Assembly (NCBI GenBank): GCA_020073365.1 | Contig: JAIQFL010000007.1 | Span: 1 to 64,000, forward strand | Length of the DNA stretch: 64,000 bases | Direction: 5' to 3' | Source: Terriglobia bacterium | GTDB taxonomy: Bacteria; Acidobacteriota; Terriglobia; Bryobacterales; Bryobacteraceae | Shown here: one piece after another, positions 2,239-39,725 of the stretch | Layout of the letters: each line of letters opens with the position of its first letter | Numbering within the stretch: the first letter of the stretch is position 1 | Position numbers and translations under genes: made by a program | Notes under the pieces: model-generated | What the model was told of the DNA's origin: nothing | The model's database searches: none | Seen by the model: only the letters and a program-made list of their open reading frames with translations

Positions 2239-3435
2239 ATGCATTTCGAATTCTCAGAAAGAGTAAGAGACCTTCAGAAGCGATTGACCGCCTTTATGGA
2301 TGAGCACATCTATCCCAATGAGGCGCGCTACCACGAGCACACCAACGGACCGAACCGATGGCAGGCGGTCCCGGTGATCGAAGAGTTGAAGCCCCATGCG
2401 CGGGCGGCCGGGTTATGGAACCTGTTCCTGCCGGAAAGCGACCTCGGCGCCGGGCTCACCAATCTGGAGTACGCTCCGCTGTGCGAGATCATGGGCCGCT
2501 CGACGATGGCGCCCGAGGTTTTCAACTGCTCCGCGCCCGATACCGGCAACATGGAGGTGCTGGAGCGCTATGGCTCTCCGGAATTGAAGGAGCGCTGGCT
2601 CAAGCCGCTGCTCGCCGGTGAGATCCGTTCCTGCTATGCCATGACGGAGCCGCAGGTGGCATCCTCGGACGCCACCAACATCGAGGCCGCGATCCGGCGC
2701 GATGGCGATCATTACGTCCTCAATGGCCGCAAGTGGTGGATCTCGGGCGCCGGCGACCCGCGATGCAAGGTCGCGATCTTCATGGGCAAAACGGACACCG
2801 CCGCGCCCAAGCATAAACAGCAGTCCATGATCGTCGTGCCGATGGATGCTCCGGGCGTGACCGTCAAGCGCATGCTGACCGTCTTCGGGTACGATCACGC
2901 GCCGCACGGGCACGCGGAGGTCTGGTTTGAAAACGTGCGCGTGCCGGCGGCCAACCTGTTGTTGGGAGAAGGACGCGGCTTCGAGATCGCGCAGGGGCGG
3001 CTCGGACCGGGGCGGATTCATCATTGCATGCGCCTGATCGGCGTGGCGGAGCGCGCCCTGGAGGGCATGGGCCGGCGCGTCCGGTCGCGCGTGGCGTTTG
3101 GCAAGACCCTGGCGGAACAGGGGACCATCCGCGCGGACATCGCCAACTCGCGCATGGAAATCGAACAAGCGCGCCTGCTGGTCTTTAAGGCCGCTTACAT
3201 GATGGACACGGCGGGCAACAAGGCCGCGCGAGCGGAGATTGCCATGATCAAGGTGGTGGCGCCCAATCTGGCTCTACGCGTGCTAGACCGGGCCATTCAG
3301 GCGCACGGCGGCGGCGGAATTTCCCAGGACTTCGAATGGGCCGCTGCCTGGGCCAACTCGCGGACTTTGCGGTTTGCCGATGGCCCGGATGAAGTGCATC
3401 GCGAATCCATCGCCAAGCTGGAGCTGAAGAAATAG
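2239..3435 (+). CDS. Acyl-CoA dehydrogenase
   Basis: '[17 protein letters not shown]', '[20 protein letters not shown]', '[13 protein letters not shown]'. Confidence 0.92.
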
Positions 3436-3437
3436 AC

Positions 3438-3470
3438 GTGGGACAGACCATCGTTTTTGGTGGTCTGTCT
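3438..3470 (+). repeat. Stop-proximal palindromic element (GTGGGACAGACCATCG...GGTCTGTC), terminator-like
   Basis: gtgggacagaccatcgtttttggtggtctgtc begins 2 nt after TAG of the 2239-3435 CDS. Confidence 0.75.
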
Positions 3471-3914: not shown

Positions 3915-3948
3915 AGACAGACCACAAAAGGCGATGGTCTGTCCCACA
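3915..3948 (-). repeat. Same palindromic element, minus orientation, after the SDR stop codon
   Basis: gacagaccacaaaaggcgatggtctgtcccac; reverse complement follows the TGA of the minus-strand SDR gene. Confidence 0.75.
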
Positions 3949-3951
3949 GGA

Positions 3952-4725
3952 TCATGGTAGCAATCGGCCCCCATCGACGATCAGGGTCTGCCCGGTGATG
4001 TAGGAGCCGCGCTCGCTGGCCAGCAGCAGCGCCATTTCGGCGATCTCCTCCGGTTGGCCCAAGTGCTTGATAGGCTGCTCTTCCATGATCTTTTCGCGCT
4101 TGGCGTCGTCTTTCCAGTAGTACTCGCTGAGCACCGTCTGAATCATGCCGGGCGCAATGGCATTGACCCGCACGCCGCGGGGGCCAAGTTCCAATGCATA
4201 AGACTGCGTCATCATGATTAAGGCCGCCTTGGTCATGCTGTACAGCATCCCGTGATATTGCGGACGAATACCGGCGATGGACGCGATGTTGACGATCGAG
4301 CCCCAGCCGCGTTCGCACATGCCCGGCGCAATCGCCTGCATCAGGCGGAAAGCACTTTTCAGGTTCACCTCCACCATCTTGTCGAACTTGCCCTCATCGA
4401 TCTGCAGCACGGGCTCCTGCGCGATGTTGGTAGCCGCGTTGTTGACCAGGATATCGATCCTGCCGAATTGCCGGTTGCAGGTTTCCACCAGGCGTTGAAT
4501 CTGGTCGGCGCGGCCAACGTGGCAGGCCAGCGGATAGAACGTGCCAGGGTTCCCTGCCATTTCCGCAGCCACCTGGTCGAGCGTTTCCTGCTTGCGACCG
4601 CAAATCACCACCGTAGCTGCTTCACGCGCGAAGGCCTGCGCAATCGCGCGGCCGATGCCGCGGCTCGCTCCGGTCACCACGGCGACCTTGTCCTTCAGAA
4701 TAGGGCTGGATATCGTCATTTTCAT
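3952..4725 (-). CDS. SDR family oxidoreductase
   Basis: 'VAVVTGASRGIGRAIAQAFA', 'NNAATN', 'YSMTKAAL', 'ITGQTLIVDGG'. Confidence 0.92.
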   Translation of the reverse strand: MKMTISSPILKDKVAVVTGASRGIGRAIAQAFAREAATVVICGRKQETLDQVAAEMAGNPGTFYPLACHVGRADQIQRLVETCNRQFGRIDILVNNAATNIAQEPVLQIDEGKFDKMVEVNLKSAFRLMQAIAPGMCERGWGSIVNIASIAGIRPQYHGMLYSMTKAALIMMTQSYALELGPRGVRVNAIAPGMIQTVLSEYYWKDDAKREKIMEEQPIKHLGQPEEIAEMALLLASERGSYITGQTLIVDGGRLLP

Positions 4726-4738
4726 TTGCGCCTCGACA

Positions 4739-5188
4739 ATGCTAAAATCACCAGACTTGGACCACCCGAAGAGTACGGCCACTAAAACTCGGACCTACCT
4801 GACCCGGCATGCGTTCAATCACCTGGTTGGATTCGAACTGGTTCGCGTGCATCGCGACGGGCTCACTATCCAATGCCGCGTGCGGCCCGAACTCCTCAAC
4901 AGCGCGGGAGCGGTACACGGCGGTGTGACTGCCAGCCTTGCCGACGCGGCAGTCGGCAGCGCGCTCCACCACCATTTTGGCGGGACACGCCGCTTCACCA
5001 CCGTGGAACTGAAGATCAACTACTTCCGCCCAGTCACGGAGGGCCGGCTGCTGGCGCGGTCCCGCCTGGTGCGGATCGGCTCCAAAATATGTGTAGGCCA
5101 GGTTGATCTCTCTGATGAACATCGGCGGAGTGTGGGCCTCGCAATCGTAACTTACATGTTCCTGGACGCTCCCCCAGCAGCCTCTTGA
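4739..5188 (+). CDS. PaaI-family hotdog thioesterase
   Basis: 'LLNSAGAVHGGVTASLADAAVGSAL...TVELKINYFRPV'. Confidence 0.85.
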   Translation: MLKSPDLDHPKSTATKTRTYLTRHAFNHLVGFELVRVHRDGLTIQCRVRPELLNSAGAVHGGVTASLADAAVGSALHHHFGGTRRFTTVELKINYFRPVTEGRLLARSRLVRIGSKICVGQVDLSDEHRRSVGLAIVTYMFLDAPPAAS

Positions 5189-6312
5189 TTGACAGGGGTT
5201 GGCAGGCTGAAGCCTGCCCTACCGTCGACTACCGTCCTGGCGATCCGTTCCCGATGAAAGGCCGCGTCGCCAAAAGCGATCTCGGAAGCCTTGGCGCGCC
5301 GATAGTACAGATGGATGTCGTTCTCCCATGTGAATCCCATACCGCCGTGCACCTGGATTCCGCGATTTCCCACGTCCCGATAGGCCTCGCTGGCATAGGC
5401 TTTGGCCACCGAAACCGCTGTACGCGCATCCGCTGCGCCTTGGTTCAAAGCCCAGGCGGCGTAGTATGCGGCCGAGCGCGAGCTTTCCGTCAGCAGCAGC
5501 ATATCCGCACACTGGTGCTGCACGGATTGAAACTGGCCGATCGCCTTTCCGAACTGCTTCCGCGTCTTGGCGTACTCCACCGAAAGTTCCAGGATCCGCT
5601 GCATCCCGCCTACCATCTCCGCCACCAACGCCACCGTGGCCACATCCATCGCGCGATCCAACGCCGCTTGCGCCTGGTCTCCGCGCGCCAGCACCTCGGC
5701 GGGCGCCTCGTCGAACGCCACCGAGTACAACTGTCGCGTCCGGTCGATTGAGGGCATACGGCGAATCGAGACCCCCCGCGCGGAACTACACACCTGCGCG
5801 ACCACCACCTTGTGGCTGCTGCGCGCCACGCACAGGAGCAAGTCCGCGGTGGCCGCATCCGGCACCAGCAACTTGGTTCCGCTGAGCCGTCCATTCCTCA
5901 GTTCCATCCCGACGCCGCCGGTCTCCCAGCACGCGTTTTCCTCGAGCAGCGCCAGGGTCGCGCGTGCGCGCCCTTCGCAAATCGCCTTCAGCCCGTTGCC
6001 CCCTTGCGGGAGAGCGTTCAGTAATGCGCCGGCAACAAACACGGTCGAGAAATACGGACCCGGCAGCAGCGCTCGGCCCATCTCTTCGGCGGCAACCGCC
6101 ATCTCGACCAGGCCCAATCCCATGCCGCCCGACTCCTCGTCGAAGATGATCCCCGTCCAGCCATGCTCCACGATTTTTCGCCACAGCTCTTCATCGTATG
6201 CGCCGTCGATTTCCATGAGCCGCCGCACCTCCGCGATCGGGCACTCGGATGTGAAGAAGCTGCGCGCCGTATGCTGCAGCATCTGCTCGGTCTCGGTGAG
6301 TCCAAATTGCAT
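5152..6312 (-). CDS. Acyl-CoA dehydrogenase
   Basis: 'GIIFDEESGGMGLGLVEMAVAAEEMGRALLPGPYFSTV', 'RKQFGKAIGQFQSVQHQCADML', 'QVHGGMGFTWENDIHLYYRRAK'. Confidence 0.92.
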   Translation of the reverse strand: MQFGLTETEQMLQHTARSFFTSECPIAEVRRLMEIDGAYDEELWRKIVEHGWTGIIFDEESGGMGLGLVEMAVAAEEMGRALLPGPYFSTVFVAGALLNALPQGGNGLKAICEGRARATLALLEENACWETGGVGMELRNGRLSGTKLLVPDAATADLLLCVARSSHKVVVAQVCSSARGVSIRRMPSIDRTRQLYSVAFDEAPAEVLARGDQAQAALDRAMDVATVALVAEMVGGMQRILELSVEYAKTRKQFGKAIGQFQSVQHQCADMLLLTESSRSAAYYAAWALNQGAADARTAVSVAKAYASEAYRDVGNRGIQVHGGMGFTWENDIHLYYRRAKASEIAFGDAAFHRERIARTVVDGRAGFSLPTPVNQEAAGGASRNM

Positions 6313-7521: not shown

Positions 7522-8331
7522 CTACCGCCAGGTCCGCAAAGCGGCGTCCTCGATGAGATGGGGGATGCCATTGAAGGAGTCGAGGGTGAAGCGCTCCCGG
7601 TCGAAGATGAACTCGGTCACCGAACTGTTGCGAACGCGCCAATTCACGTCGAGAAAGCTCCTGACGGGCGCCCGGAGCGCGAAGTGGACGGCGAAGCCGA
7701 TCGGTCCGCCTGAGGTAAAGACGGCGACGCGGCGGCCCGGCGGCCCCTCCATGATCCGGCGGATCGCGCCGGACACGCGGTCGCGGAAGGTAGTCCAAGG
7801 CTCCACGCCGTCAGCCGTGCCGCCCTCCAGCCAACGCAACATCAGCGCTTCAAACATTCGTTGGAATGCGCGATTGGCATTGGGTCCGGAGCGGGCCTGC
7901 GCATACTGAGCGGCCAGCGTCGCCAGGATCTGCTCGCTCCCGGTCGCGGCTGGGTCTGGGTCTAGTGGGACAGGCGGTTCCGCCTGTCTCGCCCGCTGGC
8001 GGGCGATGATTTCTCTCACAGTCGCGGCTCGGCTTGGGTCGGCTGACGCCAAATGCTGCAACATCCCGGGGGCGTCGTATTCGTTCCACGCCGCATCCGC
8101 CTGGGGCTCCGGCCAAGGCTGGCCCGACGCCCGAAAACAGTCCGCGACAACCTGCTCCGTTCGCGTCTGCCGCGGCAGGTCGCCCGAATACACCTCATCG
8201 AAACGAACCTGTTGGCGCAGCCAGAATTGCGCCAGCCTGGCGGCCTGGGTTTCCCCCAGCGATGTAAGGACAGAGCGCTCCCCCTGGAAAGGTTCTGCCT
8301 GGCCGTGTCTCACGAGCGTCAGAGTACTCAC
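7522..8331 (-). CDS. Histidine phosphatase family protein (GTG start)
   Basis: 'VSTLTLVRHGQAEPFQGE...LTSLGETQAARLAQFW' phosphoglycerate-mutase-like RHG motif. Confidence 0.85.
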   Translation of the reverse strand: MSTLTLVRHGQAEPFQGERSVLTSLGETQAARLAQFWLRQQVRFDEVYSGDLPRQTRTEQVVADCFRASGQPWPEPQADAAWNEYDAPGMLQHLASADPSRAATVREIIARQRARQAEPPVPLDPDPAATGSEQILATLAAQYAQARSGPNANRAFQRMFEALMLRWLEGGTADGVEPWTTFRDRVSGAIRRIMEGPPGRRVAVFTSGGPIGFAVHFALRAPVRSFLDVNWRVRNSSVTEFIFDRERFTLDSFNGIPHLIEDAALRTWR

Positions 8332-10864: not shown

Positions 10865-11056
10865 ATCGTTATGCGCTACGACAGGCCAAACGGCCCTCTC
10901 CCACCTTGGGTTCCACCATATGGGGTGAAACTGGTGGGACAGGCGGTTCCGCTTGTCCAGTTCTTTTCGTGGACACTACGCTGCCCTTCTATGACGATTA
11001 TGGCGCAAAATTTCTTCCCGCTTTTTGAGGGAGGACAGGGCAGGGGCGTCAATTTC

Positions 11057-33174: not shown

Positions 33175-33196
33175 GTGGGACAGACGATCGTCTGTC
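33175..33196 (+). repeat. GTGGGACAG-family palindrome
   Basis: gtgggacagacgatcgtctgtc. Confidence 0.7.
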
Positions 33197-38400: not shown

Positions 38401-39153
38401 GAATCCAAATGGGGCCAGCCCAGCGGCCTGGTGATGCTCTTGCCGCACGGCTTTGAGGGACAAGGCCCCGAGCATTCCAGCGCGCGCGTCGAACGCTATC
38501 TCACGCTGTGCGCCGAGAACAACATGCTGGTGGTCAACTGCACCACCCCCGCGCAATATTTCCACGTGCTTCGCCGCCAGATGTACGGCGGCTCCGACCG
38601 CCGCGGCATGCGCAAGCCGCTCATCGTCTTCACTCCCAAGAGCCTGGTGCGCCATCCGCGCGCCGTTTCCACCCTGCACGATTTCTCGACCGGGGGTTTC
38701 GCGGAAATCATCTCAGAAGCCGACGGCGCCGATCCCGCCAGCGTCACCCGCGTGGTCTTCTGCTCCGGCAAGATCTACTACGACCTGTTGGCGGCCAAAG
38801 AGGACCGCAAAGCCGATCATGTAGCCTTAGTGCGCGTCGAGCAACTCTATCCCTTCGAGGCCGGTCAGACCACCGACATCCTGGCGCGCTATGCCCCTAC
38901 AACCGAGGTGGTCTGGGCGCAGGAAGAACCGCGCAACATGGGCCCGTGGCGCTTCCTGCGCGAGCAGATCCAGCCGCTGCTGGATGCCACGCGCCGCGAA
39001 TTGCGCTACGTGGGCCGCCCCGAGAGCGCCAGCCCCGCGACGGGCTCGGGCAAGCTCCACCAGCAGGAGCAGGCCGAAATCGTCAATGACGCCCTGACCC
39101 CCGGCGCCATCTCCGAAACCCGCCGCGTCCGCGTAATCGCCCGCCGCAAGTAG
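35488..39153 (+). CDS. kgd: Multifunctional 2-oxoglutarate metabolism enzyme (E2o-catalytic/E1o fusion, Kgd-like)
   Basis: 1221 aa; E2 block 'VSYTHLIGWAVIKALEEIPAINHAY...YDHRIIQGAESGAFL'; E1o block 'IGMAHRGRLNFLANT', 'YRRHGHNEGDDPSYTQP', 'LLPHGFEGQGPEHSSARVERYL'. Confidence 0.93.
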   Translation: MPHPSDPDLGINSWLEDELYAQYLRDRTTVDESWKHLFEDSNGGTPAPAPASAASPSPAPNPQPPTPAREASPALQLLKGAPARIAENMSASLSIPLATSQRTIAVKVMDENRRIINQHRTLLGHSKVSYTHLIGWAVIKALEEIPAINHAYAEKDGQPYRVIPPQINLGIAIDVAGKEGSRSLMVPNIRNAGSLNFQEYVNAFDDLVARARASRLTPADFQGTTISLTNPGTVGTMSSNPRLMPGQGAIIAVGAIDYPAEYQGAADGTRAVLGISKVMTLTCTYDHRIIQGAESGAFLGKVQSLLDGTDGFYEEVFSHLRMPHMPVRWEKDRGALGAPRHAEASKEAGIIQMINAYRVRGHLIADLDPLGNEPSYHPELDPETYALTIWDLDREFLTGSLGEAIGEGSPKPVATLREILETLRDTYCGKIGCEYMNIQVPEQKRWLQHRMEPGKNHWPLDRETRLRILRNLLAAEEFEHFLHSRFVGQKRFALEGAETALAVMEEILERAAAGNVAEIVIGMAHRGRLNFLANTVGKDVKQIFSEFEGELDPSSTQGSGDVKYHLGATGVRKTENGREIVVSVSPNPSHLEAVDPVVEGIVRPKQDRLGDTQRERVIPVLIHGDAAFAGQGVVAETLNLSQLDGYSTGGTIHLIINNQIGFTTNPDEARSTPYSTDVARGVQAPIFHVNGDSPQAAIRVVQIAFDYRQQFKKDVVIDMFCYRRHGHNEGDDPSYTQPILYRKIKERPSVGTLYSERLVREGVLTAEEAQAMRKAVSQRLSDAYDAVQKQSERYQVQELSAVSTEEIGAFCPRTAVNQAVLERIIRAMTSFPANFHLHPKLRGFVDRRSAVIANGGSIDWAFGEALAFGTLALEGTAVRLSGQDSGRGTFSQRHLAFYDFETARRYVPLQHISPDQARFEVFDSMLSEYAVLGFEFGYSVADPLSLVIWEAQFGDFANGAQIMLDQFISSAESKWGQPSGLVMLLPHGFEGQGPEHSSARVERYLTLCAENNMLVVNCTTPAQYFHVLRRQMYGGSDRRGMRKPLIVFTPKSLVRHPRAVSTLHDFSTGGFAEIISEADGADPASVTRVVFCSGKIYYDLLAAKEDRKADHVALVRVEQLYPFEAGQTTDILARYAPTTEVVWAQEEPRNMGPWRFLREQIQPLLDATRRELRYVGRPESASPATGSGKLHQQEQAEIVNDALTPGAISETRRVRVIARRK

Positions 39154-39185
39154 GTGGGACAGACGATCGCCTTTTGTCGTCTGTC
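39154..39185 (+). repeat. Stop-proximal palindromic element
   Basis: TAG immediately followed by gtgggacagacgatcgccttttgtcgtctgtc. Confidence 0.8.
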
Positions 39186-39725
39186 AGCCGGCCTTAGCCG
39201 GACCAATGTGGAAAGCGATCCCCTCCGGTTTCGCCGCACAACAGTACATCCGCTAATACTGGAGGGCAGTTGTAGCGGGAATGCCGGGGCAAGGGCGGTG
39301 GCGTAACCAGCGGGTTGGCGCGACCTGCCTGGGTATAGTCAAAGGGCTGGAAGCCGATCATGCGGGGCGCCGGCGAGTTGCCCTGTAAGTGGAAATCGAA
39401 TGCCGCCGATCCGGCGCAGGGTTTGGCGCCGGGGCACACGAACAGTGGGTCCACGGTGGCGGTCGAGCCGATCTCTTCGGCGGGCGCGGGCGCTGCCTGC
39501 CATTGTGCCAGGTTATAGAGCTCCCACCACTTCAGGCTCCCCGCCGTTTTCGAGATCACTTCCTGCACTTTCATCATCCGCTCCATTTCCGCGGATTGAA
39601 ATCGGTCCCTCGGGTATCACCCTTTCAGGATTTTCGTCCACTTCGAGCGGACATTTCCTATGAAAAAGGCACCACCTTAGCAGCAGCTTGACGCTCAGGA
39701 GGCATTTCGCCTATGATGAACGGCC

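Follow-up and report, generated by a model that had tools for sequence, protein, structure and literature searches.

GTRG-footed REP elements stand behind stop codons in a Bryobacteraceae genome, and the stops may often be older than the elements

Several hairpins in a 64,000-nucleotide stretch of DNA from a Terriglobia bacterium (the window) stand directly behind stop codons and point in one direction. Does a mobile repeat settle on gene ends, does it bring the stop codon with it, or is the hairpin kept there for a function? REPs are among the commonest bacterial repeats, and their manner and sites of insertion are poorly understood. A sequence-only reading of the window had described three near-identical hairpins in one orientation by stops, with further variants at 33175, 7965 and 10934. 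Reading the sequence directly, we confirmed the three hairpins at distances of 2, 4 and 0 nt from the stop, and in each the GTGG foot faces the stop. The variants also exist: one is a loop-deleted member of the same family (family A) and two belong to a shorter sister family (family B), and none of them adjoins a stop. A copy at 5201-5222 on the minus strand was absent from the earlier list. The elements of the window are as follows.

3438..3469, plus strand: family A REP GTGGGACAGACCATCGTTTTTGGTGGTCTGTC with GTGG foot, arranged TAG-ac-element, 2 nt past the TAG of an acyl-CoA dehydrogenase gene (Pfam) ending at 3435
3916..3947, minus strand: family A REP GTGGGACAGACCATCGCCTTTTGTGGTCTGTC with GTGG foot, arranged TGA-tcct-element, 4 nt past the TGA of an SDR gene ending at 3952
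5201..5222, minus strand: family B-like REP, GTAG-footed (GTAG-GGCAGGCTTCAGCCTGCC), close to where the acyl-CoA dehydrogenase ORF 5152-6312 (-) ends
7965..7988, plus strand: family B REP (GTGG-GACAGGCG-GTTC-CGCCTGTC), within and antisense to a histidine-phosphatase gene
10934..10957, plus strand: family B REP in the space separating two minus-strand genes; the start of an ECF-sigma-like gene lies 69 nt away
33175..33196, plus strand: loop-deleted family A REP (GTGG-GACAGACGATCGTCTGTC), nearest same-strand stop 280 nt off
39154..39185, plus strand: family A REP with GTGG foot, directly abutting the TAG of a Kgd-like 2-oxoglutarate dehydrogenase gene ending at 39153

An Rfam search of the window gave no family match at gathering scores. 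Gene content, with a CarboxypepD_reg/OMP_b-brl_4 protein, and the genome size point to Acidobacteriota as the probable host group. The 3' side of the 39154 element lies 8 nt from a small convergent ORF call (39194-39574), which is uncharacterised and has no Pfam match. The 5201-5222 copy apparently lies within the reading frame of its ORF. The Pfam match of the histidine-phosphatase gene (7522-8331, minus strand), which holds the REP at 7965-7988, is broken into two stretches, so that the REP region may be translated as a protein insert.

Family A proved to be a repeat of the whole genome. The element is 32 nt long, GTRG-GACAGACS-ATCG-N8-SGTCTGTC. In the 12.09 Mb assembly of the window's genome (G000, 705 contigs), the degenerate 32-mer GTRGGACAGACSATCGNNNTTNGTSGTCTGTC has 169 exact copies and the reversed pattern has 0, and GTGGGACAGRC has 469 exact matches versus 12 for its reversed control. 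Furthermore, family A words top the most frequent 12-mers in a 1.32 Mb sample. The stem, GACAGACG-A / T-CGTCTGTC, has 8-9 bp, the loop is variable and pyrimidine-rich, and the predicted RNA fold of the hairpin has -14.1 kcal/mol. Over 176 contexts, compensatory changes were found at three stem pairs; pair 12-25 is G-C in 134 and C-G in 39, and pairs 6-31 and 10-27 change from A-T to G-C. A GTGG or GTAG foot is present in 36 of the 37 hairpin bodies of the sample. Families A and B together form 12 close pairs (7 with feet outside, 3 with feet inside, 2 tandem). The GTRG foot, compensatory stem changes, inverted pairs and copy number all support the REP-like nature proposed for the hairpins: the element belongs to the REPs with a GTAG/GTGG foot, as a new family within a known superfamily.

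The likeness to that superfamily is close. In the survey by Di Nocera et al. (2013, PMC3733652), GTAG REPs are short palindromes in many copies, mostly intergenic and near ORF 3' ends, with inverted dimers and a GTGG variant of the foot, which is also that of Opitutus terrae GTAG-20. The foot is often the TAG stop of the gene, and the REPs were remarked to provide stops. Family A differs in its stem, GACAGACS, and in its loop, which has 12 nt between 8-bp arms versus 2-3 nt in many families; it may equal a consensus that the survey lists. As in REPINs and BIMEs (Bertels and Rainey 2011, PMC3116915; Nunvar et al. 2010, PMC2817692), there are inverted pairs with feet outside, but singletons dominate here (69 versus the 12 close pairs).

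The exact 32-mer occurs in 4 of the 61 searched genomes, namely G000 and three relatives, G001 of the same genus and G021 and G031 of the same family, with 88-101 copies in each relative; the search gave no copy in 57 of the 60 relatives. The foot depends on the species, and the upstream flank moves with it from CA to CC. GTGG is the foot of 31 of the 37 bodies in G000. GTAG is the foot of 46 of the 51 copies read in G001, where most regions were picked by a GTAG-pattern search, although the unselected 32-mer search likewise lists mainly GTAG feet. CA precedes GTAG in 22/51 copies of G001 and CC precedes GTGG in 15/38 copies of G000. If this flank is the cleavage dinucleotide, it would agree only loosely with the published guide rule (PMC8266576).

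Which enzyme could move such an element? Proteins with PF01797 are encoded in all four element-bearing genomes. G021 has two RAYT genes in tandem (contig C159, 30604-32262; loci L141 and L144) that are flanked by family A copies, and another copy lies inside each reading frame; the first protein scores above the NCBIfam cut-off for REP_Tyr_transpos (NF047646). The RAYT gene was duplicated in tandem along with its REPs, whose sequence is translated both inside the protein and at its end (TDDKNRSSVP). Other RAYTs of G021 have their own sister REPs, one being flanked by a form of family B and a third by GTAGGACAGGCCTCCTGGCCTGTC. This resembles the REPtron (Quentin et al. 2018, PMC6006769; PMC8266576), in which a RAYT is flanked by its own REP, each RAYT has its own REP type, and GTAG or GTGG lies 0-2 nt from the stem. 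Family A departs from it in a loop that exceeds the 2-5 nt of the published search rule, in REPs within the RAYT reading frame, and in a genome, G000, in which only RAYT fragments were found. In G000 the closest RAYT relative, on contig C259, is a broken gene; about 50 nt separate its 3' end from a family A copy. On contigs C68 (218-391) and C334 (near 2842), only the 5' part of a RAYT gene is found, enclosed by a pair of family A copies in inverted orientation, as if this pair had taken along a piece of its own transposase gene. BIMEs enclosing the rayt 3' end were reported in 2010 (PMC2817692), and the two family A pairs enclose the RAYT 5' end in much the same way. The suggested link to TnpA_REP/RAYT is supported by the relative in which the exact element flanks the gene; in G000 itself, an assembly of 705 contigs, only fragments of the cognate RAYT were found, next to or between copies.

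The position relative to stop codons was measured in the 1.32 Mb sample of G000. Genes were called with a home-made hexamer model, which leaves gene starts approximate, and the sample contigs were partly chosen as known repeat carriers, which affects density and not position relative to stops. The sample has 38 full family A copies, 32 outside called genes and 6 inside. In 16 of the 32 intergenic copies the foot lies -5 to +6 nt from a same-strand stop, compared with 0.69 expected from random intergenic placement (p about 1e-18), and the other side lies near a stop in only 2. Random placement is rejected on this sample, and the conserved orientation and stop-abutting position reported from the window hold for the family. 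In G001, 25 of 40 intergenic copies lie within -4 to +6 nt of a same-strand stop; 15 copies, out of 46 GTAG feet, lie at -4, where the TAG of the foot is itself the stop. In G000, 15 of 33 GTAGGACAGAC words supply the stop of a called gene, although some of these words occur by chance and have no hairpin; the population as a whole has mostly GTGG feet 0-6 nt past stops. Family B (GTGG-GRCAGGCS-N4-SGCCTGYC) is about equally abundant, but only 3 of its 37 intergenic copies lie by stops and the others are in gaps without stop preference. Stop preference as a trait of every GTGG repeat is ruled out. Since family B does not share the preference, the stop rule is specific to one family and does not extend to variants of the kind at 7965 and 10934.

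We consider it fairly probable that family A is a GTRG-footed REP copied by a RAYT and inserted in one orientation next to GTRG-like tetranucleotides, with old GTAG stops as a frequent landing place. The RAYT would recognise the footed hairpin as single-stranded DNA and copy it elsewhere, and we infer from filled and element-free orthologous sites that it would insert in one orientation beside such a tetranucleotide. A host GTAG at a gene end (G plus the TAG stop) would often be hit, since the tetranucleotide is present there and an insertion just past a stop is harmless, while insertions within genes would mostly be lost. The stop would then protect the GTAG foot from decay, and the G000 population would have shifted largely to GTGG feet just past stops. 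Mobilisation by a RAYT would explain the abundance, the foot, the hairpin, the pairs and the transposase association, and insertion 3' of a host GTAG would explain why the foot falls exactly on old stops. In the transcript of such a copy, a hairpin of about -14 kcal/mol would come directly after the stop codon and there, as in E. coli, might delay ribosomes at termination or shield the 3' end of the mRNA; it is plausible that family A has such an effect.

This effect might itself be the cause of the position, if the hairpin were a regulatory 3'-UTR signal, a ribosome staller or mRNA stabiliser, selected behind stops, and mobility were secondary. The strong oriented clustering at 0-6 nt fits this, and so does the presence, at several loci of the sister species, of other REP-like repeats at these 3' ends. 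Stalling of ribosomes has been reported for E. coli REPs that lie within 15 nt of a stop (cited in PMC12306157); family A shares with them a hairpin a few nt past the stop, has an unrelated stem, and was tested here for strict orientation. Selection for a signal sits less well with copies that are rarely shared between species, with the many orthologous genes that lack the element, with the six copies inside genes, and with the indifference of family B to stops. We regard regulation as the primary cause as rather unlikely.

Another explanation is that the foot belongs to the element, that REPs supply new TAG stops to their host genes, and that the gene-end position reflects only selection against insertion within genes. 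Almost all copies have indeed conserved GTAG, which serves in vitro as a guide (PMC8266576), and family B shows that a related repeat is found in gaps with no stop preference. Insertion at a host GTAG and delivery of the stop by the element differ in which of the two, stop or element, is older. At loci where the GTAG foot is the present stop, orthologous sites of G000 and G001 were aligned in both directions. At 12 of 17 loci the element-free orthologue in the sister species has its stop at that very codon, in the contexts GTAG (5), GTAA (4), GTGA (1), ATAG (1) and CTAG (1). The C-terminal 70 residues of these twelve genes were then searched in five other genera, and the stop offset was 0 in 21 of 30 comparisons, and in 12 of 18 with genomes that have no exact copy of the element. 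Random landing of an element with its own stop would have moved most stops. In addition, no copy of the original stop was found 3' of the hairpin in the filled sites examined. The gene end has moved by 1-3 codons at some stop-overlapping copies (L211, L222, L221, L290, L299), and L211, L222, L290 and L299 speak for a stop brought by the element. As a general rule, stops brought by the element are disfavoured by the identical codons, and we judge this explanation unlikely. Where the GTAG foot is the stop, these comparisons suggest that the stop is usually older than the element, and this favours insertion at a host GTAG over delivery of the stop.

The same pattern would arise if shared ancestral insertions had decayed or been lost in the sister species and left the stop behind, mimicking a stop that came first. 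Decayed remnants that retain GTAGGACA and the stop are present at two loci (L276, L306), yet the same stop codon is used in other genera, three genomes without an exact element copy among them, and such loss is quite improbable as the explanation. The sequence-only reading had also considered a terminator, but intrinsic termination is highly improbable and is rejected for most copies, because these hairpins past stop codons mostly lack a T-tract (TTTT within 10 nt in 2/38 copies, 4 or more T among the 8 nt that follow in 4/38), the TTTTT directly 3' of the 3438 element being among the few exceptions.

We propose, though only tentatively, that for at least part of the copies the GTAG foot may be the host target tetranucleotide and not cargo, the hairpin being joined 3' of it, with G+TAG stops as safe landing sites. 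IS200/IS605 elements insert beside their target tetranucleotide, and the proposed joining 3' of an existing GTAG resembles this. In vitro work, in contrast, treats GTAG as a guide owned by the REP that selects CT/CA/CC cleavage and not as a target (PMC8266576); this role sits uneasily with the target reading, unless guide and target share their sequence. Ten GTGG sites compared with the sister species had no clear GTGG at the aligned place, where alignments behind stops are unreliable. Because the element-free sites of GTGG copies show no GTGG, support for the target rule is limited to GTAG feet.

That REPs lie near stops, and that a GTAG foot can serve as the TAG stop, was already known; the evidence that the stop came first is the less expected part. 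It distinguishes family A from the GTAG superfamily as the 2013 survey presents it, and would extend and partly reverse the remark there that REPs provide stops (PMC3733652). If target insertion is true, the opposite of this remark holds for many copies, the REP having been drawn by the stop. The family amounts to a natural experiment: its RAYT is identified, three relatives hold about 100 copies each, and filled and element-free sites are many. The outcome indicates that pre-existing stops are where the repeat settles, in one orientation, and that its foot can change between GTAG and GTGG from species to species. Both the target choice of a REP and what it does to translation termination in the gene upstream become directly testable.

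The 3438 element is common to G000 and G001; the foot of the G001 orthologue is GTAG and is itself the stop, and the G000 gene ends in AAATAG, followed by AC and then GTGG. At this and two other shared loci (L279, L295) the G000 copy lies 6-10 nt farther from the stop than the G001 copy, which would be compatible with renewed insertion or small indels. The 39154 element is absent at the orthologous site of G001. The SDR orthologue in G001 has another repeat, GTAGGGTATGCTTTAGC, on its GTAG stop, and likewise the partner of L054 in the comparison of G001 and G000 has a different repeat on the same GTAG stop. G000 holds several more abundant palindromic repeats, such as GTGGGGCATGCTTTAGCATGCC and CACAGGCAAGAATGCC, some of which are at family A sites of G001. 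Different repeat families were observed at the 3' end of the same gene in the two species at L054/L258, at window 3916-3947 versus L251, and at L075/L362, and further pairs are L301/L319, L047/L361 and L110/L363. It looks as if these gene ends were recurrent landing sites.
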